Part shown: positions 11,470 through 62,738 of the stretch, one piece after another
How the letters are laid out: each line of letters starts with the position of its first letter
Numbering within the stretch: position 1 is the stretch's first letter
Assembly: GCF_001633165.1 (NCBI RefSeq)
Contig: NZ_CP015418.1
Span: 3,844,001 to 3,908,000 of the forward strand
Source of the DNA: Rhodovulum sulfidophilum DSM 1374
Lineage (GTDB): Bacteria; Pseudomonadota; Alphaproteobacteria; Rhodobacterales; Rhodobacteraceae
Reading direction: 5' to 3'
Length of the DNA: 64,000 nt
Position numbers and translations under genes: made by a program
Notes under the pieces: generated by a model
The model's input: only the letters and a program-made list of their open reading frames with translations
Database searches by the model: none
Told to the model about the DNA's origin: nothing

Positions 11470-11548
11470 CCTGCCGGCGGGGCGTCCCTGACGCCCCCCG
11501 TCGCGCCCAGCCCCGGCTAAGGCTTGGCGCACTCTCTCCGCGACCAGG

Positions 11549-11784: not shown

Positions 11785-11860
<76 letters not shown>

Positions 11861-44533: not shown

Positions 44534-44575
44534 ATCATGCACGCCAAACCAAATCAATGGGTCCCGACCCGAGTC
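44534..44575 (-). repeat. Left copy of a 42-bp IS5-type end
   Basis: On the minus strand this begins GACTCGGGTCGGGACCCATT and ends GGCGTGCATGAT; 40 of 42 bases match, in opposite orientation, the sequence at 59183-59224 ahead of an IS5 transposase. Beyond the 42 bases the two differ, so only the IS tip remains here. Confidence 0.8.
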
Positions 44576-44831
44576 ATGGCGCAGCCGTGGCGTATCTGTC
44601 CCATAGGGCTTCCTTACATGCCAGCGAATGGATCGCACCATCAAACCGTGGGATCAAACACCTAGCGCACAAACACGCCGCATGAAAGCACCCTACATTC
44701 GGCGCTTACGATTTATTAGGCGGCCTCATTTAAATGAGATCCAGCAACAGCGCGACACCTGTTCATTTGTCTCGCCGCCCCCCCCTATTGTCCCGTTCGG
44801 TGTCCCACATTGTTCGGTGCGCCCATGAGGA
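44576..44831. promoter_or_regulatory. Upstream region of the secretion operon, with a 14-bp palindrome
   Basis: No gene is seen between the IS tip and the first ABC gene. The region is AT-richer than its neighbours and contains the perfect palindrome CTCATTTAAATGAG at 44725-44738, about 95 bp upstream of the first start, and two TTCGGTG repeats at roughly 44800 and 44814. It presumably holds the promoter and operator of the operon. Confidence 0.4.
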
Positions 44832-46475
44832 ATGAGGCACGCATTGAAAATAAACGGCGCCTTGCCCTATGTTTCGATCGGATCTGCCTCGCTCTGCATC
44901 AACACGCTGGCCCTGGCGGCGCCGCTGTTCATCCTGCAAGTTTACGATCGCATCATCCCGAATCACTCGGAGAACACGGCCGCCCTCATAGGGCTGGGCG
45001 TTCTCTGCGCTCTAGCACTTGAAACCGCGTTAAAGATTGCACGCTCCAAAGTTCTGGCGCCTCTTGCGATAGATTATGAAGTTCGGGCCAGCTGTGGCGC
45101 CGCACGTCATCTCTTTCACGCTGACCTGGCGGCATTTGAGCGTGTTTCGCCGGGCGCGCACATGGAACGACTCGCCGCCGTCGCCCAGCGACGCTTTAAT
45201 GGCACCGGGCAAACACTTCTGGCCATTTGCGATTTCCCCTTCCTGTTCGTTTTTATGTGGATGATCTGGATTCTGGGCGGTCCGGTCATCATCGCGCCTG
45301 CTCTCGGCGCCATTGCGCTGGCTGTTGCGGCAGCACCGGCAAACCGCTCTGCGCGAGAGGCTCTGGCCCGCGCGCTGTCTCTGGACGACCAGCGATACGA
45401 TTTCCTGCTCAGCACGCTTTCAAGCCTGCCATCGCTCAAGGTCGCCAATCTGGAACGCCCGGTGTTGCGCCGATACGAAAGCCTTCAAAAGCGGCGCCTT
45501 GCTGCACAGGGGGAGGCATTCACGGCTGATCAGCGGCTGACCGATCTATCGCAACTCGTCGTACAGCTCTCGATCATCGGGGTCATCGTGCTGGGCAGTG
45601 TGCTGATATTGCAGGGCCGCATGTCGATAGGGGGACTATCTGCCTCGACCTTGCTGGCGGGTCGTTTCCTGGCACTCATCAGAAACCTGATCCTTCTGGC
45701 TTCGCGCTTGCAAACATCCAGCATCGGGCGCGAGCAGATGGATGCAATTTTCAAGATTCCTGTCAGATCGGCATCCTCCGGCATCCTGGACGCCAGTCAG
45801 GCACCGCCCAGGCTGAGCCTGCGTGGCGTCGTTTTCAACGATAACGATGGCAAGCGGGTGCTCGACGGCGTCGATCTGGACCTTCGGGAAGGACATACCG
45901 TCGGTCTTGTCGGGGACAACGGCAGTGGCAAGAGCATCCTGCTGGCGCTCGCCGCAGGCCTTTACTCCCCGACTTCCGGAGAGGTTCTCCTGGGCGGGCA
46001 TCCCCTATCTGACTATACCGACCAAAGCCTGCGCAGGACCATCTCGTTGGTGTCCCAGCAAGAGACGTTGTTCGCAGGCTCAATCCTCGAGAACATTTCG
46101 ATGTTCGCCCCTGAACGCGTCGATGCCGCGCTCAGGGCGGCAGAGCGAACCGGTCTCACCGAGCTTATCAAGCCATTACCAAAGGGCTTTACCACGATAG
46201 TCGGCGACGCCGCTGCCGACGGGCTGCCACGCGGTGTCGTGCAGCGCATCGCGCTTTGCCGGGCACTGGCCCTGGATCCGCAGGTCCTGCTTTTCGACGA
46301 CGCCAATTCGGCAATTGACGACCAGGGCGATGAAAGGGTCGCGGAGCTTTTTGCAGATATTCGTGAACGTTGTGCGATCCTTTTCGTCAGTCACAGGCCA
46401 AGCGTCCTGGGCCGCGCCGACGCGATTGTGCGGCTGGCAAACGGACGGATCAGCACTGTCGAAGGCACGTTCTGA
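44832..46475 (+). CDS. Type I secretion ABC protein with degenerate ATPase site
   Basis: A 547-residue inner-membrane ABC exporter half (PrtD/LapB-like). The membrane domain (1-300) starts with the family's ALAAPLFILQVYDRIIPNHS element. In the nucleotide domain Walker A is normal (GDNGSGKS, 361-368), as are the Q loop (SLVSQQ) and H loop (VSHRP), but the signature is GLPRGVVQR instead of LSGGQ and Walker B is LLFDDANSAID, with Asp for the catalytic Glu. It probably binds but poorly hydrolyses ATP, and pairs with the next gene product as a heterodimer (inference). Start: ATG 44832; TTG 44844 has the better-placed GAGG. Its stop overlaps the next start (TGATG). Confidence 0.88.
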   Translation: MRHALKINGALPYVSIGSASLCINTLALAAPLFILQVYDRIIPNHSENTAALIGLGVLCALALETALKIARSKVLAPLAIDYEVRASCGAARHLFHADLAAFERVSPGAHMERLAAVAQRRFNGTGQTLLAICDFPFLFVFMWMIWILGGPVIIAPALGAIALAVAAAPANRSAREALARALSLDDQRYDFLLSTLSSLPSLKVANLERPVLRRYESLQKRRLAAQGEAFTADQRLTDLSQLVVQLSIIGVIVLGSVLILQGRMSIGGLSASTLLAGRFLALIRNLILLASRLQTSSIGREQMDAIFKIPVRSASSGILDASQAPPRLSLRGVVFNDNDGKRVLDGVDLDLREGHTVGLVGDNGSGKSILLALAAGLYSPTSGEVLLGGHPLSDYTDQSLRRTISLVSQQETLFAGSILENISMFAPERVDAALRAAERTGLTELIKPLPKGFTTIVGDAAADGLPRGVVQRIALCRALALDPQVLLFDDANSAIDDQGDERVAELFADIRERCAILFVSHRPSVLGRADAIVRLANGRISTVEGTF

Positions 46476-48640
46476 TGGCAGGCACCGGAACCGAAAACCG
46501 ATCCGGCGGAGCCAATGGTCGGTTGGCCCGCCTTGAGGCGGAGCCTGCCGTGCATGGGCAAGGACAGGTGTGGGACGCCGTCGACGAAACACTTGCCGTC
46601 TGCCTGTATGACGCGCTGCGCGATCTCGGCTGGCGGGGCGAGCTTCGGGATCTGCGCCTGTCCTTTGCATTGGATCTTTCGGGTGACAGAGTGCTGGATA
46701 CGCTCAACGCTGCTGCCCGGCTCGGCTTTGCGGGTCACGTCAGGCGCGGCAGGGCATTTCCCGAGAAGGATCTGGCCCGCACAGCCCTTGGGCCAGGCGG
46801 CACGACGCAAGGCCTGCTGTTCTTGCCCCTCCGTGGAGAGCCTCGCTTTCTGCGGATGCGCGCAGCCGATGCCCGGCACGCGGTGCGGTTGGGTGCAGGC
46901 TCGCTCATTCGCTTTGAACGCGTCGAAACGCCTGCTTCGGAAATCGGGAAATCCTGGCTCGGCCAAAGACTGCGTGCGCAGCTTCCGCTGGTCCTGCGCG
47001 CGCTGTTGCTGACGTTTTTCGCAAATCTGGCGGCGGTGGCCAACCCACTGTTCGTGATGGCGGTCTACGACAAGGTGGTGGTGTCGGAATCGACCGCTTT
47101 GCTCGCCTATCTTGCCGCCGGAGTGGTCGCCGCCGCCTGGATGGAAATGCTGATGCGTCGGCTCCGCGGTCGGATCATGAACCGCGCCAGCCTGCGGCTG
47201 GGATATATCGTCGGAAATGCAGTCTTCGGCCGCATCCTGGCACTGCCAAGTCGCACAACCGAAAGAGCGGGACTGTCGAGCCAGATTGCCAGAGTGCGCG
47301 ACGTGGATCGGATCCGGGATCTGTTGCGCGGGCCGCTCGAGCAGGCACTGCTCGACACCCCCTTTACACTGCTTTTCGTTGCCGCTGTCGCAATCGTCGG
47401 CGGCTGGCTGGCCCTGATCCCGCTCTGCTTCATGATCCTGTTTGCAGCTCTGGCAGCGATCGGTGAGCGGCATATGCGTGGTCGTGGTGCGGAGGTTGCA
47501 AAAGCAAGCGCGCAACGCCAACTCGTGACGCTTGAAATGATGCATCGCATGCGTGCGATCCGCGCCGCGGGCGGCGAAACGGTTTGGCTGGAACGCTATC
47601 GCGACAGCGCAGCAAAGGCGGCCCGGGCGAGCGAGCGCAACACCACCTCGGCCCAGATTTTGGCCGCCATCGGCCAGTCGCTTGGCACAGGAGCAGCTCT
47701 TGCGACACTCTTCGCGGGCATTTTCCTGGTGCTCGCCGATGCGATGACGACCGGCGGGCTGATCGCCAGCATGATGTTGGTCTGGCGCCTGATCGCGCCG
47801 ATTCAGAACGCATTCCTGGCGGCGACGCGGATAGGTCAGCTGGTCGCATCCGCCCGCCAGATCGACCGGCTGATGGAAACCGAGGCAGAGATCGCCCCTG
47901 GCGAGGGCGACGGCGAGCGGCCGCCAATCCAGGGCGAAATCGCCTTCAACCGCGTGACGTTCCGATATGGGCGCGAAACCGAACCGATTCTCGGCGGCGT
48001 GAGCTTCACTGCGCAGCCCGGAGAGATCGTTGCCATTGTTGGTCGCAACGGAAGCGGAAAATCAACTCTGCTAAAGCTGGTCGCCGGGCTATACGAAGCG
48101 CAGGCAGGCAATATTCGCCTAGATGGCCGAGATCTCCGTCAATTCGACCCGACCCATCTGCGTCGCGCCATCTCCTACGTCCCGCAATTGCCGAGTTTTC
48201 ATTACGGCACCCTACGCGACAATCTGTTGATGGCCGAGCCGGAGGCTGACGAGCAGGACATCGCCGAAGCGTTGCAGCTCGCAGACGCGGCGACGGCCAT
48301 AGCGGCATTGCCCGAAGGCTTGGACACCTTCTATGACGCCCAGCTTGTCACCTTGCCGGTCGGACTGCTGTCGCGTCTGTCACTGGCGCGCATGTACCTG
48401 CGAAAAGCGCCTGTCGTCCTGTTGGACGAACCGGCGACGGGCATCGATTTCATGGGAGAATTCGCCTTCATCGGCGGGCTGGAGCTGTTACGAGCCCGCG
48501 GCGCGACCGTGCTGATCGTCACCCATAACCGCCAGCATCTCGGCGTCGTGGACAAGATCCTGATGCTCGAGGAAGGCACTGTGCGCTTTTTCGGCTCTGC
48601 CGAAAAAGTGCGCGACCGAATTCCCAAGGGATTGATCTGA
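46475..48640 (+). CDS. Second type I secretion ABC protein with N-terminal extension
   Basis: A 721-residue ABC exporter half. Residues 1-150 form an extra cytoplasmic domain resembling the catalytically dead C39-like domain of T1SS transporters (no Cys/His pair seen), probably for substrate recognition. The membrane domain (about 165-450) has the NPLFVMAVYDKVV element. The nucleotide domain has Walker A GRNGSGKST (523-531), an intact Walker B with Glu (VVLLDEPATGID) and H loop (VTHNRQ), but its signature LPVGLLSRLSLA is degenerate. As the catalytic Glu is kept, this should be the active partner of the preceding protein. Its stop overlaps the HlyD start. Confidence 0.88.
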   Translation: MAGTGTENRSGGANGRLARLEAEPAVHGQGQVWDAVDETLAVCLYDALRDLGWRGELRDLRLSFALDLSGDRVLDTLNAAARLGFAGHVRRGRAFPEKDLARTALGPGGTTQGLLFLPLRGEPRFLRMRAADARHAVRLGAGSLIRFERVETPASEIGKSWLGQRLRAQLPLVLRALLLTFFANLAAVANPLFVMAVYDKVVVSESTALLAYLAAGVVAAAWMEMLMRRLRGRIMNRASLRLGYIVGNAVFGRILALPSRTTERAGLSSQIARVRDVDRIRDLLRGPLEQALLDTPFTLLFVAAVAIVGGWLALIPLCFMILFAALAAIGERHMRGRGAEVAKASAQRQLVTLEMMHRMRAIRAAGGETVWLERYRDSAAKAARASERNTTSAQILAAIGQSLGTGAALATLFAGIFLVLADAMTTGGLIASMMLVWRLIAPIQNAFLAATRIGQLVASARQIDRLMETEAEIAPGEGDGERPPIQGEIAFNRVTFRYGRETEPILGGVSFTAQPGEIVAIVGRNGSGKSTLLKLVAGLYEAQAGNIRLDGRDLRQFDPTHLRRAISYVPQLPSFHYGTLRDNLLMAEPEADEQDIAEALQLADAATAIAALPEGLDTFYDAQLVTLPVGLLSRLSLARMYLRKAPVVLLDEPATGIDFMGEFAFIGGLELLRARGATVLIVTHNRQHLGVVDKILMLEEGTVRFFGSAEKVRDRIPKGLI

Positions 48641-49965
48641 TGTTGGACGAAAAAAGCGCATCCGCCGGGATTAAGGACGGGTTCGCCGTCGAGGATTTCG
48701 TCCGCGACACCGGCATCGGCCCTCTGACCCATGCCATGATCTGGATGATCGCCGGAGGTCTGCTCGCATTCCTAGCATGGGCTGCAGTAACGCCGGTCGA
48801 CGAAATCGCCAAGGGAACAGGAGAATTCGTTCCAGCCGGCGCCGTACGCGCGCTTGACCACCTGGAAGGCGGGATTGTGGAGGAAGTGTTGGTAAAGGAA
48901 GGCGAGGTCGTCGCGCAAGGCCAACCCTTGCTAAGTTTAACCAGTACGGCCACCATCTCAAATCGTGACCAGTTGATCGCTCGACGAACGACGCTGGAGC
49001 TGCAAGCTGAACGTTTCGCGGCCTTCGCCGAGCGGCGACGTGCTGACTTTCATCGTTTCACGAGTGACGAAAAACTGATCGCGGAACAAGAACGCCTTTT
49101 AAATGCCCAGATTGGTGTCCGCGTTAGCCAAGAAAAAATTTTTCAAGAGCAAGTCACAGGATTGGAAGCACAGATCGACGCGGTGTCTCTGCAGAAGGAA
49201 ACCCTCGCCGAGGCATTGGCCCTGATTGACCGGCAGGCTGCTATTCGCGAAGGCCTGGTCGGCAAGGGGCTGAACCCGCTCCTTCAACTGCTTGAGATAC
49301 AGCGAGAGCGGACCATGGCCGTGGCGCAACTGCGCGAGCTGGATAGTAGTATTTGGTCTCTTCGAAACGACATCTCCCAGGTCCACACCCGAATCAGCGA
49401 GTTTCACGGACGCTTGCTCGAAGAGGCGCTTAACCAACTGGAAACCGCCAATGCAGAGCTGGCCGAGATCCGTGAGCAGCTGACTGCCCAAAATGACAGG
49501 ATCAAGCGGCTGCTTATCGTGGCGCCGGCGGCAGGCATCGTACAAGAGCTCGCCGTTCGCACGGTGGGTGGTGTGCTGAAGCCCGGTGAGACAGCCGCTC
49601 GGCTGGTGCCATTGGATGACGAATTGATCGCAGAGGTTCAGATCTCACCGCGCGACATAGGATTCGTTCAAGTCGGCCAAGCGGTGAAACTGAAGGTCAT
49701 GGCCTTTGATTTCAGCCGCTACGGACATGTTTATGGCAAGATCTCAAGCATATCACCCAGCACATTCCTGGACGCAAACAAAGTCCCCTACTACCTTTGT
49801 CGCATACATTTAGACTCCAGCCAGATTGGCTCAGAGGGCGAAACGCGCCACTTTCTTCCCGGAATGACGATTCACGCCGACATTTTGACCGGAAAAAAGA
49901 CCATTCTTCAGTATTTCTTAAAGCCACTCTACACAATAGTCGATGGCACGCTGGGGGAAAGGTAA
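48640..49965 (+). CDS. HlyD/LapC family periplasmic adaptor
   Basis: A 441-residue membrane-fusion protein for type I secretion. An N-terminal cytoplasmic tail is followed by one membrane helix (MIWMIAGGLLAFLAWAAV, about 33-50), a lipoyl half-motif (ALDHLEGGIVEEVLVKEGEVV), a long coiled-coil hairpin (about 105-300) and the second lipoyl half (IVAPAAGIVQELAV) with the beta-barrel AEVQISPRDIGFVQVGQAVKLK typical of the family. It links the two ABC proteins to an outer-membrane TolC-like channel, for which no gene is in the window. It is translationally coupled to the upstream gene (ATG inside the stop). Confidence 0.93.
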   Translation: MLDEKSASAGIKDGFAVEDFVRDTGIGPLTHAMIWMIAGGLLAFLAWAAVTPVDEIAKGTGEFVPAGAVRALDHLEGGIVEEVLVKEGEVVAQGQPLLSLTSTATISNRDQLIARRTTLELQAERFAAFAERRRADFHRFTSDEKLIAEQERLLNAQIGVRVSQEKIFQEQVTGLEAQIDAVSLQKETLAEALALIDRQAAIREGLVGKGLNPLLQLLEIQRERTMAVAQLRELDSSIWSLRNDISQVHTRISEFHGRLLEEALNQLETANAELAEIREQLTAQNDRIKRLLIVAPAAGIVQELAVRTVGGVLKPGETAARLVPLDDELIAEVQISPRDIGFVQVGQAVKLKVMAFDFSRYGHVYGKISSISPSTFLDANKVPYYLCRIHLDSSQIGSEGETRHFLPGMTIHADILTGKKTILQYFLKPLYTIVDGTLGER

Positions 49966-49989
49966 CCCAGGGGTCTGGGGAAGCGTTTG

Positions 49990-52900
49990 ATGTCTGAGGG
50001 TAAAAAGATTGCGGAACCTCCGCTTGGGACGGAGAATGACGCGTTGAGCGCTCAGCTGACACCGCCTGGCCGCGAGCGCGTCGAGGTAATCGAACGTCCT
50101 GTAGACGCAAATGCGGCCATACGCGCCGTCGATGACCGCAGTATGTCTCTGATCCATCGCGGCGAGGTCGACGAGCCCCCCCTTCTCAGCGCGCGCGCCC
50201 CTGACTCTGTCGGTGGACCCTCAGCGGAAACCATGGACGTTTGGCGCGCCGAAGAGACGACAACTATGTCGGTCTCAGATTTCGGACCAATGCCATCCCT
50301 TTCCTGGAGCGCCCCCGTCAGCGGCGCCTCGCTTGGCACGATTGCACTCCCGAGTGGCGTCTCCAATGTCGTCGGTAGCTTGGAGGTTGGGGATGCCATC
50401 CCCTTCGATATGGCCGAACTCGCCGTGCAATCGATCCTGGCTGTTGACACAATCCCCCCGGACACATCGGCCGACGGCGCTGATTTTCCCAACCAGGACG
50501 TCTCTGCCGACGCTAGCCCCGCGCCTACCCCGGTGACCGATGCGCCCCGGCTCGACGTCGCGCCCGCGACCGGCGCCGAGGACAGCGCCATCGCCCTCGA
50601 GCTCGCCGCAGACCTGATCCGACCCGCCCCGGGCGAGACCCTCACCCTCACCGTCTCGGGCCTGCCAGAGGGCGCCGCCCTCTCGGCCGGCATGATTGCC
50701 GGTGTCGCATCGGACGGCTCCACGACCTGGTCTCTTGGCGCCGCCGATCTTGCGGGCCTGAACTTGATCCCGCCCTCAGGGTTCACAGGCGATTTCGAGC
50801 TGCAAATTGCCGCGATTGCCAGCGATCCGGAGGGCGGCGTCGCGACCACCAACCAATTGCTGCCGGTGACCGTCCTTGCAGAGGAGCCTTCGCTGCCACC
50901 GTCATCTCAGGTGATCGAGCTGAACGGATTGATCACCCCGGAAGACACAGCCGTCGTACTGGAGCTCGGGCAGGCCTTCCTTGAGGCCACCGGTTTCTCG
51001 AACCTGACCTTTGCGTCGATTTCCGGTTTGCCGGAAGGAACGATGCTCTCTGCCGGTGACTTGCAGCCGGACGGAAGCTATCTGGTTTCCGCAGCGGACC
51101 TGGAAGGGCTCTTGCTGACGCCTCCCAATGACTCGGACGACGACATGCGCATCGCGGTCTCCTTCGAGCTCACCGATGGCGCCCAGGTCAACGCGGCCTT
51201 CGACCTGCAGGTCGATGCCGTGGCCGACATGCCGACCATCACGATCAGCGGCGCCTCGAGCGACGATGTCTCGGTCATTCCTTTCAATATCGGCGGCGGA
51301 TTGAGCGATGTCGACGGGTCGGAGACGCTGACACGTTTCGTTTCCGGTCTTCCCGAAGGCGCACGCCTGTCTGCGGGCACTTATGCGGGCGATGGCCTCT
51401 GGTTGCTGACGCCCGAGGATCTGACAGGGTTGGCGCTTCGGCCCCCGACCGACTTCTTCGGCAGCTTCGGCTTTACGACCACAGTCGTCGCCACCGAGGC
51501 CAGTAATGGCGACGTCGCGGTCTGGAACCAGAATGTCACCGTGACCGTCTCGGGGGGGCAGGAAGGAGACGTCTGGCAGAGTTACGACGCGCGCGGGGAT
51601 GAAGATACGGCGGTAGATCTGGGGACCTTTCTGCTCCTTTTCGACCTGGCCGGGTTCGCTTCGATCGCGGTCGAAGGCGTGCCGGAGGGAGGAACATTGT
51701 CGGGCGGCTATCTCGACGAGAATGGCGACTGGATCATCGCCGTCGGCCTTTTGCAGGACCTGAGCTACACGCCCCCTGAACATGACGCGTCCGACGTCAC
51801 CTTGTCCGTGGTTGGCCGGATCCTGTCCTTTCCGATCACCCTTGGCCGCATCGATGTGCTGGTCGACGCGGTCGCGGATGCGCCCAGCCTGTCGGCCAGC
51901 GCGGTCGACGGGATCGAGGATCAGGCGCTGAGCCTGACCATCCACGGCGCGCTCGTTGACACCGATGGCTCCGAGACCTTGTCCTTCGCAGTTCTCGGCT
52001 TGCCCGAGGGCGCGGTGCTGAGCGCGGGAACACGCGATCCGGCAAGCGGAACCTGGATCCTGACGCCGGAGGATCTTTCCGGTCTCACCCTGACCCCACC
52101 TCCCGACTTCAGCGGGCAGCTGACCTTCGACGTAAGGGCGAACTCTCTGGAAGACGAAGGCAATGCAGCAAGCACGACAGAGACGATCACCATCAACATC
52201 CTGCCCGTAACCGATGCCGCCTCGCTGATTGTCCAGGCCGCGGCCGGGCATGAGGATCAGCCCATCCCGCTGAACATTACGCTGAGCTCGGGCGACGCGG
52301 ATGGATCGGAAAACGTGACGGCCATCGTGATCTCGGGCCTGCCCGACGGAGCGGTGCTAAGCGCCGGAACCGCTCTCGGCGCTGGCGCCCATGCAGTGCA
52401 ACCGGAGGATCTCGCCGGCTTGACGATAACGCCGCCCGCCAACTTCTCCGGGCAGTTCGATCTGCAGGTGACAGCGACGCTGCAGGACGGCACTGCGGAT
52501 CCGGTCACGGTTTCCGGCACGTTGACGGTGACAGCGGCGCCGGTCGCGGACGCGCCGGTCCTGAATGTGATCGACGCTCTCGGCGTGCCGGGAGAACCGG
52601 TGGATCTGAGCATATCGGCCGCCACGGTCGTGGCGGATGGGACAGAGGTGCTCTCCATCGTTCTGAGCGGGCTGCCGGAAGACGCCTTCCTCACCGCCGG
52701 GCGCAATATGGGCGGCGGCGTCTGGTCGCTCGATGCGCAGCAACTCGACGGCTTGCAGCTTCTTCCACCGCAAGACTGGTTCGGCGAATTCGCTCTGACC
52801 GTCGATGCCCATGCGACGATCGCCGGGACCGGCGACATCGCCAGCAATACTGCGGTCATCGACGTGCAGGTGCCGGAGCCCGCCCCCATCGCCATGGAGG

Positions 52901-53424
52901 TCGTGGTCGATATCGCGCCCGGTTTCAGCGTCGACGGCACCGCCACCCTGTCCCGGATCGTCGTCACCCTGGCCGATGATCCGCTTTTCGCCGAGGACAC
53001 GCTTGCCTTGTCAGACGAAACCGCGTCCGATCCGGTGATATCAAACGCCCTGAGCGGGGGCGCCCTCAGCCTGCGCTTTGAAAACGATGGCCGGCAAGCG
53101 ATCCTCGAAGGCGACGCTCCGACGGAGCTCTTCGAGCAACTGGTCCGTGGCCTGCAGCTTCACACCTCGTCCGATCAGGGCAGCAGAACCGTTTCGATCG
53201 ATGTCTACGATACCGCAGGCGAGCTTCTTCCGCTCGATTCCGTCAATCTGACCCTGAACCCGAACGACCCCGCCGCATCGACCGACCCCGGTGATTTGTT
53301 CGCTGCGGACACCTCTTTCGACGCAGAGACCGACACGACGAGCCTGGATTGGGACGCGGGCTCAGATGCCCTGGACACGCCGACTACCGACGATCCAGCA
53401 CCTTACCAAGAAATGTCGACCTGA
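49990..53424 (+). CDS. Large repeat protein, likely secreted adhesin
   Basis: A 1144-residue, acidic protein without a signal peptide, as expected of type I substrates. Residues 1-190 are unique and low in order. From about 195 to 1000 there are seven repeats of 107-122 residues, each with a SGLPEGAxLSAG motif (near 224, 346, 453, 563, 671, 783 and 895) followed some 30 residues on by LxGLxLxPPxxFxG; this is the VCBS/cadherin-like pattern of large bacterial adhesins. The end (about 1080-1144) is very rich in Asp, Thr and Ser. No RTX nonapeptide (GGxGxDxxx) is found. ATG 49990 is preferred to TTG 49987. It follows the secretion genes directly and precedes the signalling genes by 12 bp. Confidence 0.82.
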   Translation: MSEGKKIAEPPLGTENDALSAQLTPPGRERVEVIERPVDANAAIRAVDDRSMSLIHRGEVDEPPLLSARAPDSVGGPSAETMDVWRAEETTTMSVSDFGPMPSLSWSAPVSGASLGTIALPSGVSNVVGSLEVGDAIPFDMAELAVQSILAVDTIPPDTSADGADFPNQDVSADASPAPTPVTDAPRLDVAPATGAEDSAIALELAADLIRPAPGETLTLTVSGLPEGAALSAGMIAGVASDGSTTWSLGAADLAGLNLIPPSGFTGDFELQIAAIASDPEGGVATTNQLLPVTVLAEEPSLPPSSQVIELNGLITPEDTAVVLELGQAFLEATGFSNLTFASISGLPEGTMLSAGDLQPDGSYLVSAADLEGLLLTPPNDSDDDMRIAVSFELTDGAQVNAAFDLQVDAVADMPTITISGASSDDVSVIPFNIGGGLSDVDGSETLTRFVSGLPEGARLSAGTYAGDGLWLLTPEDLTGLALRPPTDFFGSFGFTTTVVATEASNGDVAVWNQNVTVTVSGGQEGDVWQSYDARGDEDTAVDLGTFLLLFDLAGFASIAVEGVPEGGTLSGGYLDENGDWIIAVGLLQDLSYTPPEHDASDVTLSVVGRILSFPITLGRIDVLVDAVADAPSLSASAVDGIEDQALSLTIHGALVDTDGSETLSFAVLGLPEGAVLSAGTRDPASGTWILTPEDLSGLTLTPPPDFSGQLTFDVRANSLEDEGNAASTTETITINILPVTDAASLIVQAAAGHEDQPIPLNITLSSGDADGSENVTAIVISGLPDGAVLSAGTALGAGAHAVQPEDLAGLTITPPANFSGQFDLQVTATLQDGTADPVTVSGTLTVTAAPVADAPVLNVIDALGVPGEPVDLSISAATVVADGTEVLSIVLSGLPEDAFLTAGRNMGGGVWSLDAQQLDGLQLLPPQDWFGEFALTVDAHATIAGTGDIASNTAVIDVQVPEPAPIAMEVVVDIAPGFSVDGTATLSRIVVTLADDPLFAEDTLALSDETASDPVISNALSGGALSLRFENDGRQAILEGDAPTELFEQLVRGLQLHTSSDQGSRTVSIDVYDTAGELLPLDSVNLTLNPNDPAASTDPGDLFAADTSFDAETDTTSLDWDAGSDALDTPTTDDPAPYQEMST

Positions 53425-53436
53425 AAGGAAGTGTCG

Positions 53437-54639
53437 ATGAAAATTCTGGTCGTTGACGACGACGATCTGGTCCGGGAATTGATCCTGCACAGCATAGGAC
53501 AGCTCGGCCATGACCTGCACGCGGCGGATAGCGGCGAGACTGCGCTGGAGCAAATCAAGGCCGGCCTGGAAGTGGATCTGGTGATCAGCGACTGGATGAT
53601 GCCCGGGATGACAGGCGTTGATCTTTGCGCCGAAGTCCGTCGTAAAACGAGACGACGGCATATCTTTTTCCTGCTTCTGACCGCGCGCGAAAGCCGCGAG
53701 GACTATCTGTCGGCCATGGAGGCCGGCGCCGACGACTTTCTGGTCAAGCCCTTCGATCCGGAAATGCTGGCCGCCAAGGTCCGCGCAGCGGAACGCATAT
53801 TCGGCCTGCAAACCCAGCTTGCGCTCAGCAACACGCAGCTGACGCAAAGCAACCAGGAACTCGACGACGCCCTTCGCAAGATGAAGAACGACATTCACGC
53901 CGCCGCCAAGCTTCAACTTGGGTTGCTGCCGCCAGAGAAGGTACGTTTTGGCCGTTTCAGGATGTCGGCCGCCTTGCTGCCATCCTCTGCGGTGTCGGGG
54001 GATATCTACAACTATTTCAACCTGGGCGACGAGACCTTCGGGCTCTATTCGCTCGATATCGCCGGACATGGTGCGCGTGCCGCGATGATGTCCTTCGCGA
54101 TTTCGCGCTTCATTATCGATCTGGGGGTCGTCGGCAACTTCGAACGCACCCGTACATTAAGCAGCTATGTGCAGGAATTGAACGAGATATTCCAATCCAG
54201 TCCGCCGGACAATGACTATTTCACGATGCTGCTGGCAACGATCTCGTCAGACGAGAAAATGCGGGTATGCCAGGCCGGGCATCCACACCCGATCGCCACG
54301 CCGATCGACGGCGGCCCACCTTTTCCGCTGGGCAAGGGCGGATTCCCGGTGGGTCTGCAGGAGGGTATTTCATATGAGGAATTCCTCGTGGATCTTACGC
54401 AGATTCACCGGGTCGTCTTCTATACTGACGGCATCACGGAATGCAGTGGCCCGAACGGAGAGCTGTTCGGCGTCGAGCGTTTTCAGACGCTGTTGCATGA
54501 AGCGGAGGGCAAGCCACTGGATGACGTCGTTCCGGCCGTCAAGCAAGCGATGATAAGCTGGCATGGGGGCGACGAATTCGATGACGATATCTCAATAATT
54601 GTCCTCGAGAATTGCGAGGCAACGCCGGAGGCCCCATGA
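53437..54639 (+). CDS. Response regulator with PP2C (SpoIIE/RsbU) phosphatase output
   Basis: A 400-residue regulator. Residues 1-120 are a receiver domain (MKILVVDDDD acidic pocket, phosphoacceptor Asp52 in SDWMMPG, Lys104 in VKPFDPE). A coiled coil (about 120-160, ALSNTQLTQSNQELDDALRK) leads to a PP2C-type phosphatase domain with SGDIYNYF, SLDIAGHGARAAMMSF, YTDGITE and DDDISIIVL, whose Asp residues bind two metals. Such proteins dephosphorylate STAS antagonists when their receiver is phosphorylated. ATG 53437 with AAAGGA seven bases upstream is preferred to GTG 53431. The STAS gene overlaps its stop (ATGA). Confidence 0.92.
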   Translation: MKILVVDDDDLVRELILHSIGQLGHDLHAADSGETALEQIKAGLEVDLVISDWMMPGMTGVDLCAEVRRKTRRRHIFFLLLTARESREDYLSAMEAGADDFLVKPFDPEMLAAKVRAAERIFGLQTQLALSNTQLTQSNQELDDALRKMKNDIHAAAKLQLGLLPPEKVRFGRFRMSAALLPSSAVSGDIYNYFNLGDETFGLYSLDIAGHGARAAMMSFAISRFIIDLGVVGNFERTRTLSSYVQELNEIFQSSPPDNDYFTMLLATISSDEKMRVCQAGHPHPIATPIDGGPPFPLGKGGFPVGLQEGISYEEFLVDLTQIHRVVFYTDGITECSGPNGELFGVERFQTLLHEAEGKPLDDVVPAVKQAMISWHGGDEFDDDISIIVLENCEATPEAP

Positions 54640-54971
54640 TAAAGACCGAACCCTCAGCTGGAGTGACCATCTTTGTGATCGGCACGCAGCGTCTGGACGC
54701 AAGCAATGCGACTGCATTCCACTCGCAATTGGCCCCGTTGATCAAGGGACACGATCGGATCATTCTTGACTTCACTTCCGTGGAATTCATGGATTCAACC
54801 GGAATTGGTGCGCTTGTCGGCGTAACCAAGGGGAAGAGCCCCGACGCACGCATTGCCATGTGCGGACTGACACCTGCAGTCGAGACCATCTTCAAGCTGC
54901 TGCGCATGGACATGTTTTTCCTCGTTGCTGCCGATCGCTCAGATGCCATCGCGCTGCTCGAAAGCGCCTGA
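54636..54971 (+). CDS. STAS-domain anti-sigma-factor antagonist
   Basis: A 111-residue single STAS domain of the SpoIIAA/RsbV type. The conserved FMDSTGIGALVG loop contains the Ser (Ser54) that the partner kinase phosphorylates and the PP2C phosphatase dephosphorylates. ATG 54636 overlaps the previous stop, so the phosphatase and its substrate are made together; a longer frame from 54612 lies inside the upstream gene. The next gene, encoding its likely kinase, follows after 3 bp. Confidence 0.92.
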   Translation: MIKTEPSAGVTIFVIGTQRLDASNATAFHSQLAPLIKGHDRIILDFTSVEFMDSTGIGALVGVTKGKSPDARIAMCGLTPAVETIFKLLRMDMFFLVAADRSDAIALLESA

Positions 54972-54974
54972 CGG

Positions 54975-55379
54975 ATGGGCAACATGCCTGGCCGCTTCAT
55001 ATTGAAGTACGATTTCCTGGAAGCGCCCCGTGTCTGGGACGCGATCAGTAGCGAAGTCAGCGCAAATTATCCGCAGGATGACCTGATAAAAATTCGTCTC
55101 GGCCTGACCGAGATCATCAACAATATCGTGGAACACGCTTCCAACGGGCAGGACGATGCCAGGTTTTCTCTTCGAATTCTGAAGCTTGAGAGCGGGCTTT
55201 TCTTATGTCTGTCTTATGCGGGCCCCGCTTTCGTGCCGCCGCCCGACGCTTTGGACGCGGAGAAGGTGCTGGCAAGTGAACGAACCCGCGGACGAGGTCT
55301 ATGGCTCATCTCTCAGTGTTTCACCCAGGTGAGGTATCGCGATCGTGGCCTCACTCAAAGGGTTATCGCGCGGCTATAG
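54975..55379 (+). CDS. RsbW-like anti-sigma serine kinase (HATPase_c_2)
   Basis: A 134-residue GHKL kinase of the RsbW/SpoIIAB type. The N box is LTEIINNIVEHA (Glu, Asn), a degenerate G1 box is LSYAGPAFVPPP (the usual DxGxxF is changed), and the G2 box is TRGRGLWLISQ. Such proteins phosphorylate the STAS partner and also bind a sigma factor or another target. No sigma-factor gene is in the window. It is the last gene of the block before a 112-bp gap. Confidence 0.88.
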   Translation: MGNMPGRFILKYDFLEAPRVWDAISSEVSANYPQDDLIKIRLGLTEIINNIVEHASNGQDDARFSLRILKLESGLFLCLSYAGPAFVPPPDALDAEKVLASERTRGRGLWLISQCFTQVRYRDRGLTQRVIARL

Positions 55380-55491
55380 CCCCCTCGTCGCCTGATCAAA
55401 CGCATCGGGTAGCGACAGAAACGGATCTTAAGAGATCAAACATATCTGTCAGCGACGATGCGGTTGGTTAAATAACTCCGGACGCCTCGAA

Positions 55492-58400
55492 ATGAGCTTT
55501 CTCAGGCCCCAAAAATCTCTGCCCAGGCACCCGGTCGTGACGGGCATGATCGTCGTCCTGACAGTCCTGGCGGTTGCCAACGGGGCGATCACGATAGAGA
55601 AACGGGCTCTGCTGGAAGCGGAACGCGACCTGGTGGCTCAGGAGGTCATGACTTTCGCCGCCCGCTTGCAGACAGAAATTAACTCGAACGTATATCTTGC
55701 AAATGGCCTCATTGCATTCATCGCAGTAAGCAAAGCCCCCGCCCCGCAGGAGATGAAAGCGGCAATGGCGTCGCTACATGGCGCGGGGCGAAATATTCGG
55801 AATATTGGCCTGGCACCCGGAAACAGAATAGAATACGTATTTCCGAATACCGGAAATTCTTCCGTCATCGGCCTGTACTACCCTGACCTCAAAGACCAGT
55901 GGCCCGCGGTGAAACGAGCCATTGACAGAAAAACGACCATTGTTGCAGGCCCGATAAATCTCAAGCAAGGCGGTGTTGGCCTGATAAGCCGGACTCCGGT
56001 ATTTCTTGAGGACGGCTCCTATTGGGGCATTCTTAGCCTGGTTCTGGACGCAGAGAGCGTGTTCGCACAAGCTGGCATCCTGCCTCTGCAGAACAACTTG
56101 AATATCGCTCTACGCCTGAAGGCAGACGATGGCGAGCCGGATCGGGTATTCAAAGGTGAGGCGGAGCTTTTCGCGCCGACCTCCATTATACGAGACATCG
56201 TTCTGCCAGGGCTGGTTTGGCAAATCGCAGCCACACCACGCGAAGGCTGGACACAGAGCCTCGGCCATTTGCAACTGCTCCGGGGACTTTCCTTGTTGCT
56301 GGCCTTATTCCTTGGAGGCCTGGCAGCAGGGCGCCAACGGCAGAGACTGGATCTGGCGCGCACTGAAAAACGTCTGGCGTCGGTGACAAAAGCGATCCGC
56401 GATGCGATCGTCGTCGTCGACGGTTCCGGAGACATCGTCGAACTGAACGCCGCAGCCGAGACCATGTTTGGCAGGCCGACAGCGCAAGCCAAATCAATGC
56501 CTGTCGCGGAGATGTTCGAGGTCGAGACGGTCTTGGCGAACACCTCCGTCCAGACAGTTGTGCAGGGCTGGCGAGCAGACGGTACAGAGCTTTGTCTGGA
56601 GGTCAGCTCAAGCACAGTTGACATGATGGGCAATCTCAAGACCATCTACTCGATCCGCGACGTCGGTGATCGCATGGCGATAGAAAATGCCCTGAGAAAG
56701 AGCGAGGAGCGTTTCCGCAACATCACCAGTCAGGTTCCCGGCGTAATCTACCAGTGGCAGGAGGGCCCGGGGGATCGCCGGGGTTTCACCTATGTGAGCC
56801 CCCGGGCCAACGAAATTCTCGGCCTTGAAGCAGACGCCCTTGTCGAAGATTGGAGTTTGTTTCAAATTCATCCTGACGAAATCGATGCTTGGGTCGCAAG
56901 CATCTCACATTCGATATCGACTGGCGAAGACTGGCAATTCGAGGGTCGCTTTTTGCGTGGCGACGAAACTCGGTGGTGGCGCGCGTTCTCAAGACCACAG
57001 CGCTTCGTCGACGACCCGGACGGTACCGTCGTTTTCACTGGCGTGATATTTGATGTAACCAGTGTCAAGGCTGCCCAACAGGCTCTGATCGCCAAAGAGC
57101 GGGAGCTGGCAGTCGTTCTCGAAAGCGCTCTGGACGGGATCATTTCCATCGACATGCGGGGGGTGATCCTTTCCGCGAATGCGGCGGCGGCGCAAATATT
57201 TCAGTACCGCACCGAAGAGCTCGTCGGCCAAAACGTATCAATGCTGATGCCTGACGCCATCGCCAGCAGGACTGAAAGATATTTGGACTCGGAGGCTGTA
57301 AGCGTCATACGGAAGGTCGTCGGCATGTCGCGAACCGTTATGGGACGACGTCGAAATGGTGAAGAGTTTCCAGTCGAGCTAAGTGTCGCTCAGACAATGG
57401 CTGGCTGTGGCTCGGCCTACACAGGCGTCTTGCGCGACATCACCGATCGCGTCGCGGCTGAACGTGAGCTGGAGGCAGCGCGCTTCGGCCTCGAGCAGAA
57501 AGCCAATGATCTGGAAATTCTGGCAGATGAGCGAGACCGCGCCCGGCGGGATGCAGAGCGCGCCAGCGAAGCGAAATCGAGTTTCCTCGCGGTCATGAGC
57601 CACGAACTGCGCACACCAATGACAGGAATCCTGGGCATCGCCGACTTACTGCTTTCTGAAACGCAATCGGCCCGCCATCGAAAATGGATCAACACGTTGC
57701 GACGCTCAGGTGTGAGCTTGCTTTCTCTGCTCGACGACATTCTCGATTTTTCGAAGATCGAAGCGGGCAAGCTCACCCTGGAATCGATTGCCTTCTTGCC
57801 GGATGTCGTGATGGCAGATGTTTGCGAACTGCTTTCCAGCACTGCGCAGGAAAAGGGGCTGGATTTCAAGATGGAGCAGCGGATATCTCCATCGCCGACG
57901 CTCATTGGCGATCCGATGCGGCTCCAGCAGATATTGCTGAACCTGACCACAAATGCTTTGAAATTCACCGACAAGGGCGGCGTAACCCTGAGTTTGGGTG
58001 ATGCCGAGAAGCTTCCAGACGGACGGTGGCGCATGGAATTCGAGGTTGCGGATACCGGAATCGGTATTCCCTCCGAGCTTCAGGCCAATTTGTTCCAACC
58101 CTTCACACAGGCGGAGGCGTCTACCACGCGCCGTTTCGGTGGGACAGGATTGGGGCTGGCGATCTCGGGACGCCTGGCAGAAGCGATGGATGGCGAAATC
58201 GACGTCAGCAGCGTCGAGGGAAAGGGCTCTGTTTTTCGGCTGACGATCGTTTTGCCCGAGGCGACCGAAATGACGGGCAATATCTCTCATCCCGCACGCC
58301 TCGCGCTCGGGCCAGCCCATGAACGGGCTCTTAACCTCCTGATCGCCGAGGACAATGAGACCAACCGGCTCTTACTGAACGATGCGCTGGAGATGTGCGG

Positions 58401-59148
58401 TCACTCTGTTACCACAGTCGAAAACGGCGCCGAGGCTGTCGCTATCGTTAAAAAGAACGACTTCGACGCCGTCATAATGGACATGCAGATGCCGGTCATG
58501 GACGGCGTGACCGCCGCCCGACTGATGCAGACGGAGGACGGAAATGGGCCTCCGATTATTTTGCTGACAGCCGATGCACTTTCTCGAAAGAGTTTCGAAA
58601 AAGAAAATGTGTTCGCTGCGGTCCTAACCAAACCCATCGATTGGGGACAACTTTTTTCCGCGCTAAATGAATTTGCGCGGAGAGATGGTGAAGCATCAGC
58701 CGACGCGCAGCAGCATGATAAGCGGTCCGGTTTTATTGGTGCTTCCAAAAATAATTCTGATCCAGGCGAAGAGGTTTCTTCGACAGAACCGCCCACACTC
58801 TCGTTGGAGTGGCTCGATGTCTTGCGTCAGACTATCCCACCTGACCGTATCAATTCGATCTTCGCCTCGCTGATTGAAAAGCTCGACCTCCAGTCGCGCG
58901 ACCTACGCGCTCGCCTAAGCGCCGGCGACCTTGAAGGAGCAGAACGCACGCTGCATAGCCTTCTCGGACTGAGTCGCCAATTCGGTTTAGGAAAAGTCGC
59001 CCAATGTTGTCAGAATATTTCCATCACTTCGGAGTCAGGGGACGTCGCACACCAAAGCCCCCTGTTGGAACGTTTTGATATTGAAATCTCATCTGCCCGC
59101 AGAGCGCTCAAAAATCATCTTGGCGCCCAACCCAAACCTTTCTTATGA
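55492..59148 (+). CDS. Hybrid sensor histidine kinase: CHASE, PAS, HisKA, HATPase, REC, HPt
   Basis: A 1218-residue membrane-bound hybrid kinase. Order: membrane helix 1 (about 14-33), a periplasmic CHASE-type sensor (about 50-240, FVFPNTGN-like region with VIGLYYPDLKDQWPAV), membrane helix 2 (about 260-278), three PAS domains (about 295-400, 405-530 and 540-660), a dimerisation domain with phosphoacceptor His704 (AVMSHELRTPMTG), an HATPase domain (NLTTNALKFTD, DTGIGIP, GGTGLGLAIS), a receiver with Asp997 (VIMDMQMPVMDG) and a terminal HPt domain with His1155 (RTLHSLLGLSRQF). The HPt can pass phosphate to a separate receiver; the only one next door is Asp52 of the PP2C response regulator. It lies 112 bp after the RsbW-like gene. 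Confidence 0.92.
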   Translation: MSFLRPQKSLPRHPVVTGMIVVLTVLAVANGAITIEKRALLEAERDLVAQEVMTFAARLQTEINSNVYLANGLIAFIAVSKAPAPQEMKAAMASLHGAGRNIRNIGLAPGNRIEYVFPNTGNSSVIGLYYPDLKDQWPAVKRAIDRKTTIVAGPINLKQGGVGLISRTPVFLEDGSYWGILSLVLDAESVFAQAGILPLQNNLNIALRLKADDGEPDRVFKGEAELFAPTSIIRDIVLPGLVWQIAATPREGWTQSLGHLQLLRGLSLLLALFLGGLAAGRQRQRLDLARTEKRLASVTKAIRDAIVVVDGSGDIVELNAAAETMFGRPTAQAKSMPVAEMFEVETVLANTSVQTVVQGWRADGTELCLEVSSSTVDMMGNLKTIYSIRDVGDRMAIENALRKSEERFRNITSQVPGVIYQWQEGPGDRRGFTYVSPRANEILGLEADALVEDWSLFQIHPDEIDAWVASISHSISTGEDWQFEGRFLRGDETRWWRAFSRPQRFVDDPDGTVVFTGVIFDVTSVKAAQQALIAKERELAVVLESALDGIISIDMRGVILSANAAAAQIFQYRTEELVGQNVSMLMPDAIASRTERYLDSEAVSVIRKVVGMSRTVMGRRRNGEEFPVELSVAQTMAGCGSAYTGVLRDITDRVAAERELEAARFGLEQKANDLEILADERDRARRDAERASEAKSSFLAVMSHELRTPMTGILGIADLLLSETQSARHRKWINTLRRSGVSLLSLLDDILDFSKIEAGKLTLESIAFLPDVVMADVCELLSSTAQEKGLDFKMEQRISPSPTLIGDPMRLQQILLNLTTNALKFTDKGGVTLSLGDAEKLPDGRWRMEFEVADTGIGIPSELQANLFQPFTQAEASTTRRFGGTGLGLAISGRLAEAMDGEIDVSSVEGKGSVFRLTIVLPEATEMTGNISHPARLALGPAHERALNLLIAEDNETNRLLLNDALEMCGHSVTTVENGAEAVAIVKKNDFDAVIMDMQMPVMDGVTAARLMQTEDGNGPPIILLTADALSRKSFEKENVFAAVLTKPIDWGQLFSALNEFARRDGEASADAQQHDKRSGFIGASKNNSDPGEEVSSTEPPTLSLEWLDVLRQTIPPDRINSIFASLIEKLDLQSRDLRARLSAGDLEGAERTLHSLLGLSRQFGLGKVAQCCQNISITSESGDVAHQSPLLERFDIEISSARRALKNHLGAQPKPFL

Positions 59149-59182
59149 TCAATTGATCACTTTGATAAATTGCCCCCCCAGC

Positions 59183-59224
59183 GACTCAGGTCGGGACCCA
59201 TTGATTTGATTTGGCGTGCATGAT
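59183..59224 (+). repeat. Right copy of the 42-bp IS5-type end
   Basis: It begins GACTCAGGTCGGGACCCATT and ends GGCGTGCATGAT, lies 25 bp upstream of the decayed IS5 transposase start, and matches 44534-44575 in inverted orientation at 40 of 42 positions. Confidence 0.8.
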
Positions 59225-60397
59225 TCATCGTTCGAAAACGAGTGGTGCCCATGTCCGATCTTTTCTGGTTGAGCGACGCACAGATGGCACGTCGGAGCCT
59301 TACTTTCCGAAGTCGCATGGCAAGCCCCGAGTTGATGATCGACGTGTTCTGAGTGGCATTATATTCATCAATCGCAACGGCTTGCGGTGGCGCGACGCCC
59401 CAAGGGAGTATAGCCTCCACAGTTGAAGGGGACCGTGGCCCCGGTGGTGCCGCGTAAGCCCCGGAAACGCTCTACACCCTTTGGAAACGATGGAGCGAAA
59501 AAGGCGTCTTCGCTCGGATCATGGCGGTTTGACCCTTTCCCCGACATCCCGGCCATTGCGAACCGGAATTTTCCACCTTTGAATGGACGAAGGAGGAAGA
59601 CCCATGAAGCGGAAGCGTTTCGCAGAAGAAAAAATCATCAGCGTGCTGAAGGAAAGCGAGGCAGGCGCGAAGACGGACGACATTTGTCGACGTCACGGCA
59701 TCAGCTCAGCCACGTTCTACAGCTGGCGGAAGAAATACGGCGGCATGGAGGCTGGCGATGCCAAGCGCCTGAGATTTCTGGAAGCTGAAAACGCTAAGTT
59801 GAAGCGGATCGTTGCAGACCAGATGCTGGACATGTCCGCCATGAAGGATCTGCTGCAAAAACACTGGTAATCCCATGGCGAAGCGACAAGCCGTGGGCTT
59901 TCTGATGGCCGCCGAGCACGGTGAGGAGACGACCGTGATGATCGACGCCACCCATCTGAAGGCCCATCGCACGGCGTCCAGCCTGGGCGTTAAAAAGGGG
60001 GGCGTGGGCGTCTGATTGGCCGAACCAAGGGCGGCATGAATACGAAACTGCACGCAATCTGCGACAGCGAGGGCAGACCCATCGACCTGTTCCTGACTGC
60101 CGGACCCGTCAGCGACTACATCGGGGCGCGTGCGCTGATCAGTGGGTTGCCCAACGTGAAGTGGCTACTCGGAGATCGCGGCTACGATGCCGACTGGTTC
60201 AGAGAAGCCTTGCAGGACAAGAAGATACGTCCCGTTCGGGGCAGATTTGATCCACTGGATCAAATCTTGTCGCCCCTCACCCCGGGCCGGAAGAAGCGGA
60301 AGACGCCCGTCCGCTACGATAAGCGTAGGTATAAGCGGCGCAACCGGATCGAGATCATGTTCGGCAGACTCAAGGACTGGAGGAGGGTTGCGACCCG
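59225..60397 (+). pseudogene. IS5-family transposase, disrupted and truncated
   Basis: The start (ATG 59251, MSDLFWLSDAQMAR) is followed by a one-base deletion; the frame then reads EPYFPKSHGKPRVDD and NGLRWRDAPREY, then an extra block of about 55 bases, LYTLWKRWSEKGVFARIMA, the nested IS3 piece (about 59529-59911), and TVMIDATHLKAHRTASS. A second one-base loss in a G run near 60001 is followed by MNTKLHAICDSEGRP, LLGDRGYDADWFREAL and IEIMFGRLKDWRRVATR, where the C-terminus is cut off by another IS3 fragment. All three catalytic regions are still recognisable. Confidence 0.85.
59604..59870 (+). CDS. IS3-family OrfA nested in the IS5 remnant
   Basis: An 88-residue OrfA (MKRKRFAEEKIISVLKESE, helix-turn-helix CRRHGISSATFYSWRKKYGG, zipper EAENAKLKRIVADQM). 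GGAGGAAG precedes the ATG at 59604. Only the first dozen residues of its OrfB remain (MAKRQAVGFLMA at 59876), fused in frame to IS5 sequence, so the element cannot move. The left edge lies near TTTGACCCTTTCCCC at about 59529. Confidence 0.85.
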   Translation: MKRKRFAEEKIISVLKESEAGAKTDDICRRHGISSATFYSWRKKYGGMEAGDAKRLRFLEAENAKLKRIVADQMLDMSAMKDLLQKHW

Positions 60398-62715: not shown

Positions 62716-62738
62716 GTCTCTTTCCTGTCTGGCATGGT

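Follow-up and report, generated by a model that had tools for sequence, protein, structure and literature searches.

A repeat-bracketed gene block of Rhodovulum sulfidophilum that may place display of a probable surface repeat protein under a partner switch

The eight genes considered here lie at 44832-59148 of a 64,000-nt window (the whole stretch analyzed, from whose first letter all coordinates are counted) of Rhodovulum sulfidophilum DSM 1374, contig NZ_CP015418.1, positions 3,844,001 to 3,908,000. They encode two type I ATP-binding cassette (ABC) proteins, here called ABC1 and ABC2, an HlyD-type adaptor, a repeat protein, a REC-PP2C phosphatase, a STAS protein, an RsbW-like protein, and a hybrid kinase with a CHASE domain, and we consider it somewhat probable that this block can be transferred as a whole and that it displays the repeat protein at the cell surface in response to a signal. 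The first-pass annotation of this DNA had described eight genes on one strand, the first seven nearly contiguous, and all eight open reading frames were found at that place and on that strand. It had also named type I secretion system (T1SS) parts, a 1144-residue repeat protein, an RsbU/RsbV/RsbW-type set, and a hybrid kinase ending in HPt, with which the domains found agree. The features are as follows, with the evidence for each in parentheses.

44534-44575, no strand: left arm of a 42-nt inverted repeat, 95% complementary to 59183-59224
44832-46475, plus: ABC1, type I ABC permease/ATPase, 547 residues (Pfam, NCBIfam, alignment)
46475-48640, plus: ABC2, type I ABC permease/ATPase, about 721 residues from the ATG (Pfam, alignments, fold match)
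48640-49965, plus: HlyD-type periplasmic adaptor, 441 residues (TIGR01843)
49990-53424, plus: tandem-95/cadherin-like repeat protein, 1144 residues, candidate exported surface protein (NCBIfam)
50152-50163, plus: IHRG near the N terminus of the repeat protein, an instance of the family motif [ILV]HxG (motif count)
53437-54639, plus: REC-PP2C (RsbU/RbaY-like) response-regulator phosphatase (Pfam, alignment)
54636-54971, plus: STAS protein (RsbV-like) with a phosphorylatable DSTG motif (Pfam, alignment)
54975-55379, plus: RsbW-like GHKL protein (Pfam, alignments)
55492-59148, plus: CHASE-PAS-HisKA-HATPase-REC-HPt hybrid kinase, 1218 residues (Pfam, alignment)
59183-59224, no strand: right arm of the same 42-nt repeat, lying where a transposase remnant begins (repeat search)

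The seven leading genes overlap or are separated by gaps of at most 24 nt: ABC1, ABC2, and HlyD overlap or directly abut, 24 nt separate HlyD from the repeat protein and 12 nt the repeat protein from REC-PP2C, the STAS start overlaps the REC-PP2C end by 4 nt, and the RsbW-like gene begins 3 nt downstream; the gap before the kinase is 112 nt. The likely starts are the ATG codons at 46475 for ABC2 (whose reading frame is open from a TTG at 46370), 49990 for the repeat protein, 53437 for PP2C, and 54636 for STAS.

A block shared between species

All eight genes are present in identical order in a sister species that is probably Rhodovulum sp. MB263. DNA homology to the sister spans 44694-59410, with two long pieces at 89.9% and 83.6% identity, and the rest of the 64-kb window, compared with 27 kb of sister sequence, gave nothing at E ≤ 1e-10 except one 381-nt match (window 12673-13013). 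The ratios of nonsynonymous to synonymous substitution rates (dN/dS) between window and sister are 0.10 for ABC1, 0.14 for ABC2, 0.09 for HlyD, 0.24 for the repeat protein (over the last 907 shared residues), 0.20 for PP2C, 0.11 for STAS, 0.17 for the RsbW-like protein, and 0.22 for the kinase, and all eight genes are thus under purifying selection. A chance run of unrelated genes is ruled out by the synteny, the confined homology, and these ratios of 0.09-0.24. On both sides, the block is bracketed by the 42-nt inverted repeat, the 16-nt core of which occurs exactly twice in the genome, once on each side in opposite orientation, with a third place carrying one mismatch. Next to the right arm lie remnants of transposase genes (DDE_Tnp_1 and rve; by eye, an IS5-type element interrupted by an IS3-type one), and a transposase-like reading frame is found at the corresponding place in the sister. 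The block therefore looks like one transferable unit, and its layout would fit movement as such. The earlier proposal that kinase, switch, exporter, and repeat protein belong to one unit is upheld by the shared block, the bracketing repeat, and the purifying selection.

Relatives of the individual proteins point to how far this arrangement extends. The repeat protein has its best match in R. sulfidophilum, at 95% and covering 86% of the query, and among 101 related genomes a near-identical ABC1 together with a long repeat-protein match was found only in the window genome and one congener, the next-best ABC1 matches being at 35-36%; a repeat-protein match at E ≤ 0.001 occurs in 10 of the 101. 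ABC1 was matched at E ≤ 1e-57 in 18 of 394 family genomes (three candidates per genome scored), exceeding 36% identity only in its own. A search of ∼5.8 billion proteins with the RsbW-like protein gave, at the sensitivity of that search and from 17 candidates, three related clusters: one at 99%, one from MB263, and one from an uncultured Albimonas at 50%, whose longest contig measures 16,474 bp. A repeat-protein relative at 58% lies on a contig likewise of 16,474 bp, and, judging from the equal size, the two relatives probably share one contig. The kinase also has a relative in uncultured Albimonas (57%, on a 16,071-bp contig), its other relatives being at 42-47% and including one from Rhodospirillum sp. 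A1_3_36. Because repeat-protein and RsbW relatives occur on equal-sized contigs and a kinase relative is found in the same Albimonas taxon, the linkage probably reaches beyond Rhodovulum, to uncultured Albimonas.

The paired exporter and its candidate cargo

Both ABC proteins carry the domains expected of type I exporters, with Pfam E-values for ABC_membrane and ABC_tran of 1.6e-12 and 4.8e-25 in ABC1 and of 4.6e-25 and 1.4e-28 in ABC2, and the adaptor matches HlyD_3 (8.8e-20) and TIGR01843 (368.3 bits against a cut-off of 208.65). In NCBIfam, ABC1 and ABC2 each match a T1SS subfamily best, yet both score below every listed T1SS ABC subfamily cut-off. The signature motif is atypical in both (LPRGV in ABC1, LPVGL in ABC2), as is the ABC1 Walker B motif (FDDA); that of ABC2 is normal (LLDEP). 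The block thus encodes together the ABC permease/ATPase and HlyD-family adaptor that mark a T1SS. No outer-membrane channel is encoded in the block; two OEP/TolC-type genes lie near 2.914 and 3.933 Mb of the genome. The predicted model of the ABC2 N-terminal domain has a mean confidence score (pLDDT) of 76.8, and its fold matches at ranks 1-16 are C39 peptidase or C39-like domains, either isolated or as part of PCAT1 (best E-value 8e-4, the sole one below 0.001; TM-scores by query, 0.38-0.46). The Pfam C39 model has no match anywhere in the genome, which rules out ABC2 as a curated C39 peptidase, and the domain is therefore probably a non-proteolytic C39-like one. In the HlyD-family adaptor, the T1SS-like ABC proteins, and the C39-like N-terminal domain on one ABC subunit, the block resembles the HlyB/HlyD and LapBC-type T1SS, but it differs from these in having two distinct ABC subunits and no LapG in the genome. 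The LapG model (PF06035) gave 0 matches in the window's own genome and matched 1 of 14 control genomes, Caulobacter, and LapG-type release, as of a LapA-type retained RTX adhesin, is hence ruled out.

Paired exporters of this kind are widespread. A scan of genome contigs with the ABC1 alignment gave 576 confirmed stretches, the best 80 of which were taken as exporter loci; they are titled Alpha- and Gammaproteobacteria, Magnetococcales, and others, and a scan of viral contigs with ABC1 gave no relative. ABC1, ABC2, and HlyD occur together at most of the 80 loci (some contigs stop before one part), at a few the two ABC parts form a single reading frame of ∼1300 residues, and large repeat or RTX proteins often adjoin the recurring trio. 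Paired ABC proteins at one locus have a precedent in a bacteriocin-type T1SS of Legionella, as described in the accessible part of that report (PMC6959600).

Pfam gives no match to the repeat protein at 1e-3. Among NCBIfam models, it matches tandem-95 (3.2e-12; 46 bits against a cut-off of 90), and it matches Big_9/Cadherin_5 weakly; many tandem-95/cadherin-like relatives are long, and several have RTX domains. In the sister (L057, positions 8421-14833), the repeat gene holds 9.5 copies of a 330-bp unit (∼110 residues) that are 99% matching, and it is split into two reading frames, one of 1229 residues and the other of 908, which meet at the end of the array; the split could be real or an assembly effect. 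Tandem Repeats Finder detected nothing in the window's repeat gene; at the protein level, the repeat motif is present in 5 copies in the window against 7 in R. sulfidophilum P0009, whose sequence is without the N terminus. Strong changes in repeat copy number are typical of surface proteins.

A second line of evidence comes from the N termini of large proteins encoded beside such exporters. The set comprised large acidic open reading frames picked by composition and position (44 in all), from which two cut at the start and five unrelated-looking ones were dropped and to which three chosen by hand, the window protein, and five proteins from earlier loci were added. The motif [ILV]HxG is present in the first 130 residues of 28 of these 46 N termini, against a shuffle mean of 1.29 and a maximum of 6 in 1000 shuffles, although several members are closely related and hence not independent; it was found in 7 of 235 internal windows and in 55 of 700 N termini of other open reading frames. 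A looser motif gave a weaker contrast (41 of 46 against a shuffle mean of 23.2). The window protein carries IHRG. The recurrence of [ILV]HxG near the N terminus of many large proteins beside paired-ABC exporters (L076-L155) may mark a docking tag.

The switch triad, the hybrid kinase, and related circuits

The three proteins between the repeat protein and the kinase have the domains of a partner switch. The REC-PP2C protein (REC 1.6e-25, SpoIIE 3.5e-31 in Pfam) keeps its receiver aspartate, and Asp191, Asp209, Asp333, Asp385, and Asp386, which we take to be the PP2C metal-site and catalytic residues, are invariant in 7 sequences. The STAS protein (Pfam 1.7e-13) carries a DSTGIG motif, the phosphorylatable serine of which is invariant in 6 sequences, and its best solved relatives are anti-sigma factor antagonists. 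The RsbW-like protein (HATPase_c_2, 1.9e-13) keeps the N-box residues Glu46, Asn50, and His54 and a GRG motif, and its purifying selection argues for a functional protein despite the missing G1-box aspartate, a position held by Tyr81 in the window and by histidine in both MB263 and Albimonas, as against aspartate in RsbW (6m36) and SpoIIAB (1tid). The kinase has CHASE (1.7e-8), PAS, HisKA, HATPase_c, REC, and HPt (2.3e-6) domains; His704 (HisKA), Asp997 (receiver), and His1155 (HPt) are invariant in 7 sequences, which also agree over much of the CHASE region, suggesting that the seven kinases may sense a common kind of ligand. Among the eight genes, Pfam revealed no sigma factor or other linked target and no GT2 or DUF3131 polysaccharide domain.

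The genome encodes a second REC-PP2C protein, with no STAS or RsbW match within 18 kb of its gene. In a tree of 29 REC-PP2C proteins, 20 that we labeled RbaY-like, including this paralogue, form a clade (support 81/99, under the tool's star level); the window protein falls outside that Rhodobacteraceae clade, the Rhodovulum pair being unresolved among the remainder on long branches. Most of the Rhodobacteraceae REC-PP2C genes inspected (L211-L230) have one or two ABC transporter genes ∼2-5 kb away.

Outside Rhodovulum and Albimonas, the linkage of switch and exporter is weak. A PP2C gene lies near the exporter trio at 5 of the 80 loci (at 108, 1972, 1988, 2133, and 7725 nt). Of these five, four also have STAS and three have an RsbW domain; L107, L110, and L136 represent a single Magnetospirillum-like locus type. 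Within 5 kb, in 0.52 Mb of flanking sequence, ∼0.7 PP2C genes would be expected, as estimated from 75 matches (fragments included) in ∼57.6 Mb of 12 genomes, a non-random set that includes hit loci; four loci from two lineages were seen, and two independent events against 0.7 expected are not significant (Poisson ∼0.15, by hand). A general association of partner switches with this exporter is rejected on the 5 of 80 loci, counted in the available sequence, and the non-significant enrichment. Just upstream of the exporter, the Magnetospirillum-like loci have a Cache-HAMP-PP2C-RsbW fusion (its domains tested in L110), a STAS gene, and, by eye, a chemoreceptor-like gene.

Triads of the same composition are found on plasmids with polysaccharide genes. 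Of 16 plasmid records with a PP2C match, eight were opened (H5, H9, H12, and H15-H19); GT2-type genes ("cellulose synthase" or "glycosyltransferase") and DUF3131 genes lie in the same stretch in all eight, the full REC-PP2C/STAS/RsbW triad is listed in six, and a type I exporter is absent from the stretch in seven. In the Pantoea stewartii plasmid, IS66 lies between the PP2C and ATPase genes and STAS is not listed (its gene table is incomplete), and in the unannotated plasmid of Vibrio sp. THAF190c, for which we used our own reading frames, one gene lies between STAS and RsbW. These GT2/DUF3131-linked triads (Pantoea, Salmonella, Chimaeribacter, Vibrio, Pseudooceanicola, Paracoccus, and Rhodobacteraceae SC52) agree with that of the window in all three domain types and in their order. 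In four that were aligned, identity to the window proteins is 31-39% for PP2C, 38-39% for STAS, and 20-23% for RsbW, with aspartate or glutamate at the G1 position; the Pantoea agglomerans triad has a PAS hybrid kinase in its vicinity, and a 1011-residue "response regulator" adjoins that of SC52. They differ from the window in that their output genes make polysaccharide, whereas the block has neither GT2 nor DUF3131. Two of the plasmids carry further genes of note: in THAF190c, an HlyD gene and a gene for a 1836-residue RTX-like protein lie within ∼10 kb upstream, with triad and GT2/DUF3131 genes in the same ∼20 kb, a possible mixed polysaccharide/protein output, and in Salmonella Rubislaw, an annotated two-partner exporter and a filamentous-haemagglutinin-type gene follow a few kilobases downstream of the triad and GT2/DUF3131.

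Several STAS-based switches are known in bacteria, including Hsb of Pseudomonas, Syp of Vibrio fischeri, and Bgr of Sinorhizobium meliloti, which is of the same kind as the first two. HsbR/HsbA and SypE/SypA, named as precedents in the first-pass annotation, are indeed STAS-based switches for lifestyle, attachment, or matrix (PMC6482189 for Hsb), but nearer precedents are Rba (PMC3999984), Btr (PMC8256260), and the polysaccharide-linked triads. The Hsb, Syp, and Bgr systems control sigma factors, motility, or polysaccharide, and in the accessible parts of these sources, none is described beside a type I exporter and its cargo. RbaV/RbaW/RbaY of Rhodobacter capsulatus shares with the block a STAS, an HATPase, and a REC-PP2C protein in Rhodobacterales without a linked sigma factor, and according to the accessible part of that report, it controls RcGTA expression with STAS as the output, no sigma partner having been found; rbaY, however, lies apart from rbaVW, and the output is RcGTA and viability (PMC3999984). 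BtrU/BtrV/BtrW of Bordetella are likewise partner-switch proteins acting on a protein secretion system, but of type III rather than type I, and no CHASE hybrid kinase is mentioned in the part of that paper available (PMC8256260). The Caulobacter HmrABCX system combines a hybrid kinase with HPt proteins, and as STAS goes unmentioned in the accessible text (PMC11481889), it was not used as a family. No described system of the composition of the block and no paper tying an RsbU/RsbV switch to type I secretion were found in the open-access literature, which misses most subscription journals; a review of Pseudomonas regulators was the one paper in which partner switching, type I secretion, and adhesins all came up.

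Proposed mechanism and alternative readings

We propose that ABC1 and ABC2 would work as a pair, probably a heteromer, which, assisted by HlyD and by a TolC protein encoded elsewhere in the genome, exports the repeat protein, as suggested by adjacency, domain type, and the shared cargo motif. The kinase would sense an external ligand through CHASE and pass phosphate by its His-Asp-HPt relay to the receiver of REC-PP2C, the likely acceptor as it is the only stand-alone receiver in the block and in view of its architecture and conserved residues. Phosphorylation of the receiver may then alter PP2C activity on STAS and, with it, partner exchange between STAS and the RsbW-like protein, and free STAS, or free RsbW, would permit production or export of the repeat protein. 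The switch would, in this reading, control the repeat protein. Because the block has no sigma factor, a post-transcriptional or cyclic di-GMP target is favored, as for other STAS-output systems. In evolutionary terms, a control triad of the kind found with exopolysaccharide operons would here have become linked to a protein exporter.

Partner switches are already known for sigma factors, motility, polysaccharide, and type III secretion; type I adhesin export would be a new output and, as far as the open-access literature shows, the first known case of a partner switch gating type I secretion. Because the block is small, stays intact in a second species, and belongs to a photosynthetic bacterium that is not known as a pathogen, the chain from ligand to surface protein is testable gene by gene, and the polysaccharide-linked triads allow one switch type to be compared directly across different surface outputs. 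The cargo motif likewise offers a testable handle on substrate recognition by a large exporter family. More tentatively, a portable kinase/REC-PP2C/STAS/RsbW-like cassette may serve varied surface outputs, being joined in some lineages to polysaccharide synthases and in Rhodovulum, and probably Albimonas, to a paired-ABC adhesin exporter, with the whole circuit forming one mobile block bracketed by insertion sequence (IS) repeats; in such a scheme, which we hold possible rather than probable, the RsbW without its G1 aspartate would be a non-canonical switch, and the N-terminal [ILV]HxG tag of the giant cargo would be recognized by the exporter family, perhaps through the C39-like domain of ABC2.

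Several findings speak against a switch-gated display unit. The circuit is rare: the kinase (E ≤ 1e-100) and the RsbW-like protein (E ≤ 1e-5) were matched in 2 of 16 genus genomes, the window's own included, and a kinase match at E ≤ 1e-170 was found in 1 of 385 class genomes, again its own (two candidates per genome scored). Co-occurrence in other Alphaproteobacteria, which the first-pass annotation had put forward as a check, did not appear on a broad scale, either in these genomes or in the few exporter loci with PP2C, and broad conservation in that class is rejected on the ABC1, kinase, and RsbW genome counts, with three (ABC1) and two (kinase) candidates scored per genome. In the available sequence, with many of the contigs short, 75 of the 80 exporter loci lack PP2C, and the exporter thus seems not to depend on the switch. 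The loss of the G1 aspartate makes the canonical RsbW kinase step doubtful, the 112-nt gap means that the kinase may be transcribed separately, and the tree does not nest the window PP2C among the polysaccharide-linked ones, leaving descent from a polysaccharide cassette unsupported. The repeat protein, moreover, has no RTX repeat or recognized secretion signal by Pfam, and a profile of the stricter motif built from 25 members did not report it at E ≤ 1.

Part of this evidence would also be expected if exporter and cargo on the one hand and kinase and switch on the other were independent modules traveling together, the switch controlling a stress response, cyclic di-GMP, or gene transfer in the manner of Rba. 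With this agree the many exporter loci without a switch, the triads without a type I exporter in seven of the eight plasmid stretches, the bracketing by IS-type inverted repeats, and the reported control of RcGTA by Rba without a sigma partner (PMC3999984, in its accessible part). We nevertheless regard it as unlikely, if the least so of the alternatives, as only 12 nt separate the stop of the repeat protein from the start of the triad in an operon-like order kept in two species, and the repeat-protein and RsbW relatives on equal-sized contigs, at 50-58% identity, add a third lineage.

The switch might instead act on a diffusible or global target, such as a diguanylate cyclase or a sigma/anti-sigma pair outside the block, with the repeat protein one of several outputs. 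HsbA acts on FlgM and the HsbR-HsbA pair controls RpoS (PMC6482189), the Btr proteins act on translation as well as secretion (PMC8256260), each according to the part of the source available, and no target gene was recognized within the block, all of which would suit such a role. That the block is shared and laid out like an operon points to a local target, however, and no global partner was identified in the analysis, making this rather improbable in our view. We give about the same low weight to the idea that the repeat protein is no adhesin and is rather a coat protein that the cell retains, or what is left of a once larger protein, in a block that does not serve attachment. Compared with the sister array, the window copy is much shorter, and it has no RTX or known adhesive domain by Pfam, but dN/dS is 0.24 over 907 residues, many tandem-95/cadherin-like relatives are long, several with RTX domains, and the N-terminal cargo motif is kept.

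Elsewhere in the window, at 62167-63716 on the minus strand, a reading frame with, by eye, a contact-dependent-nuclease-like C-terminal end is accompanied by a small neighbor that is possibly an immunity protein.

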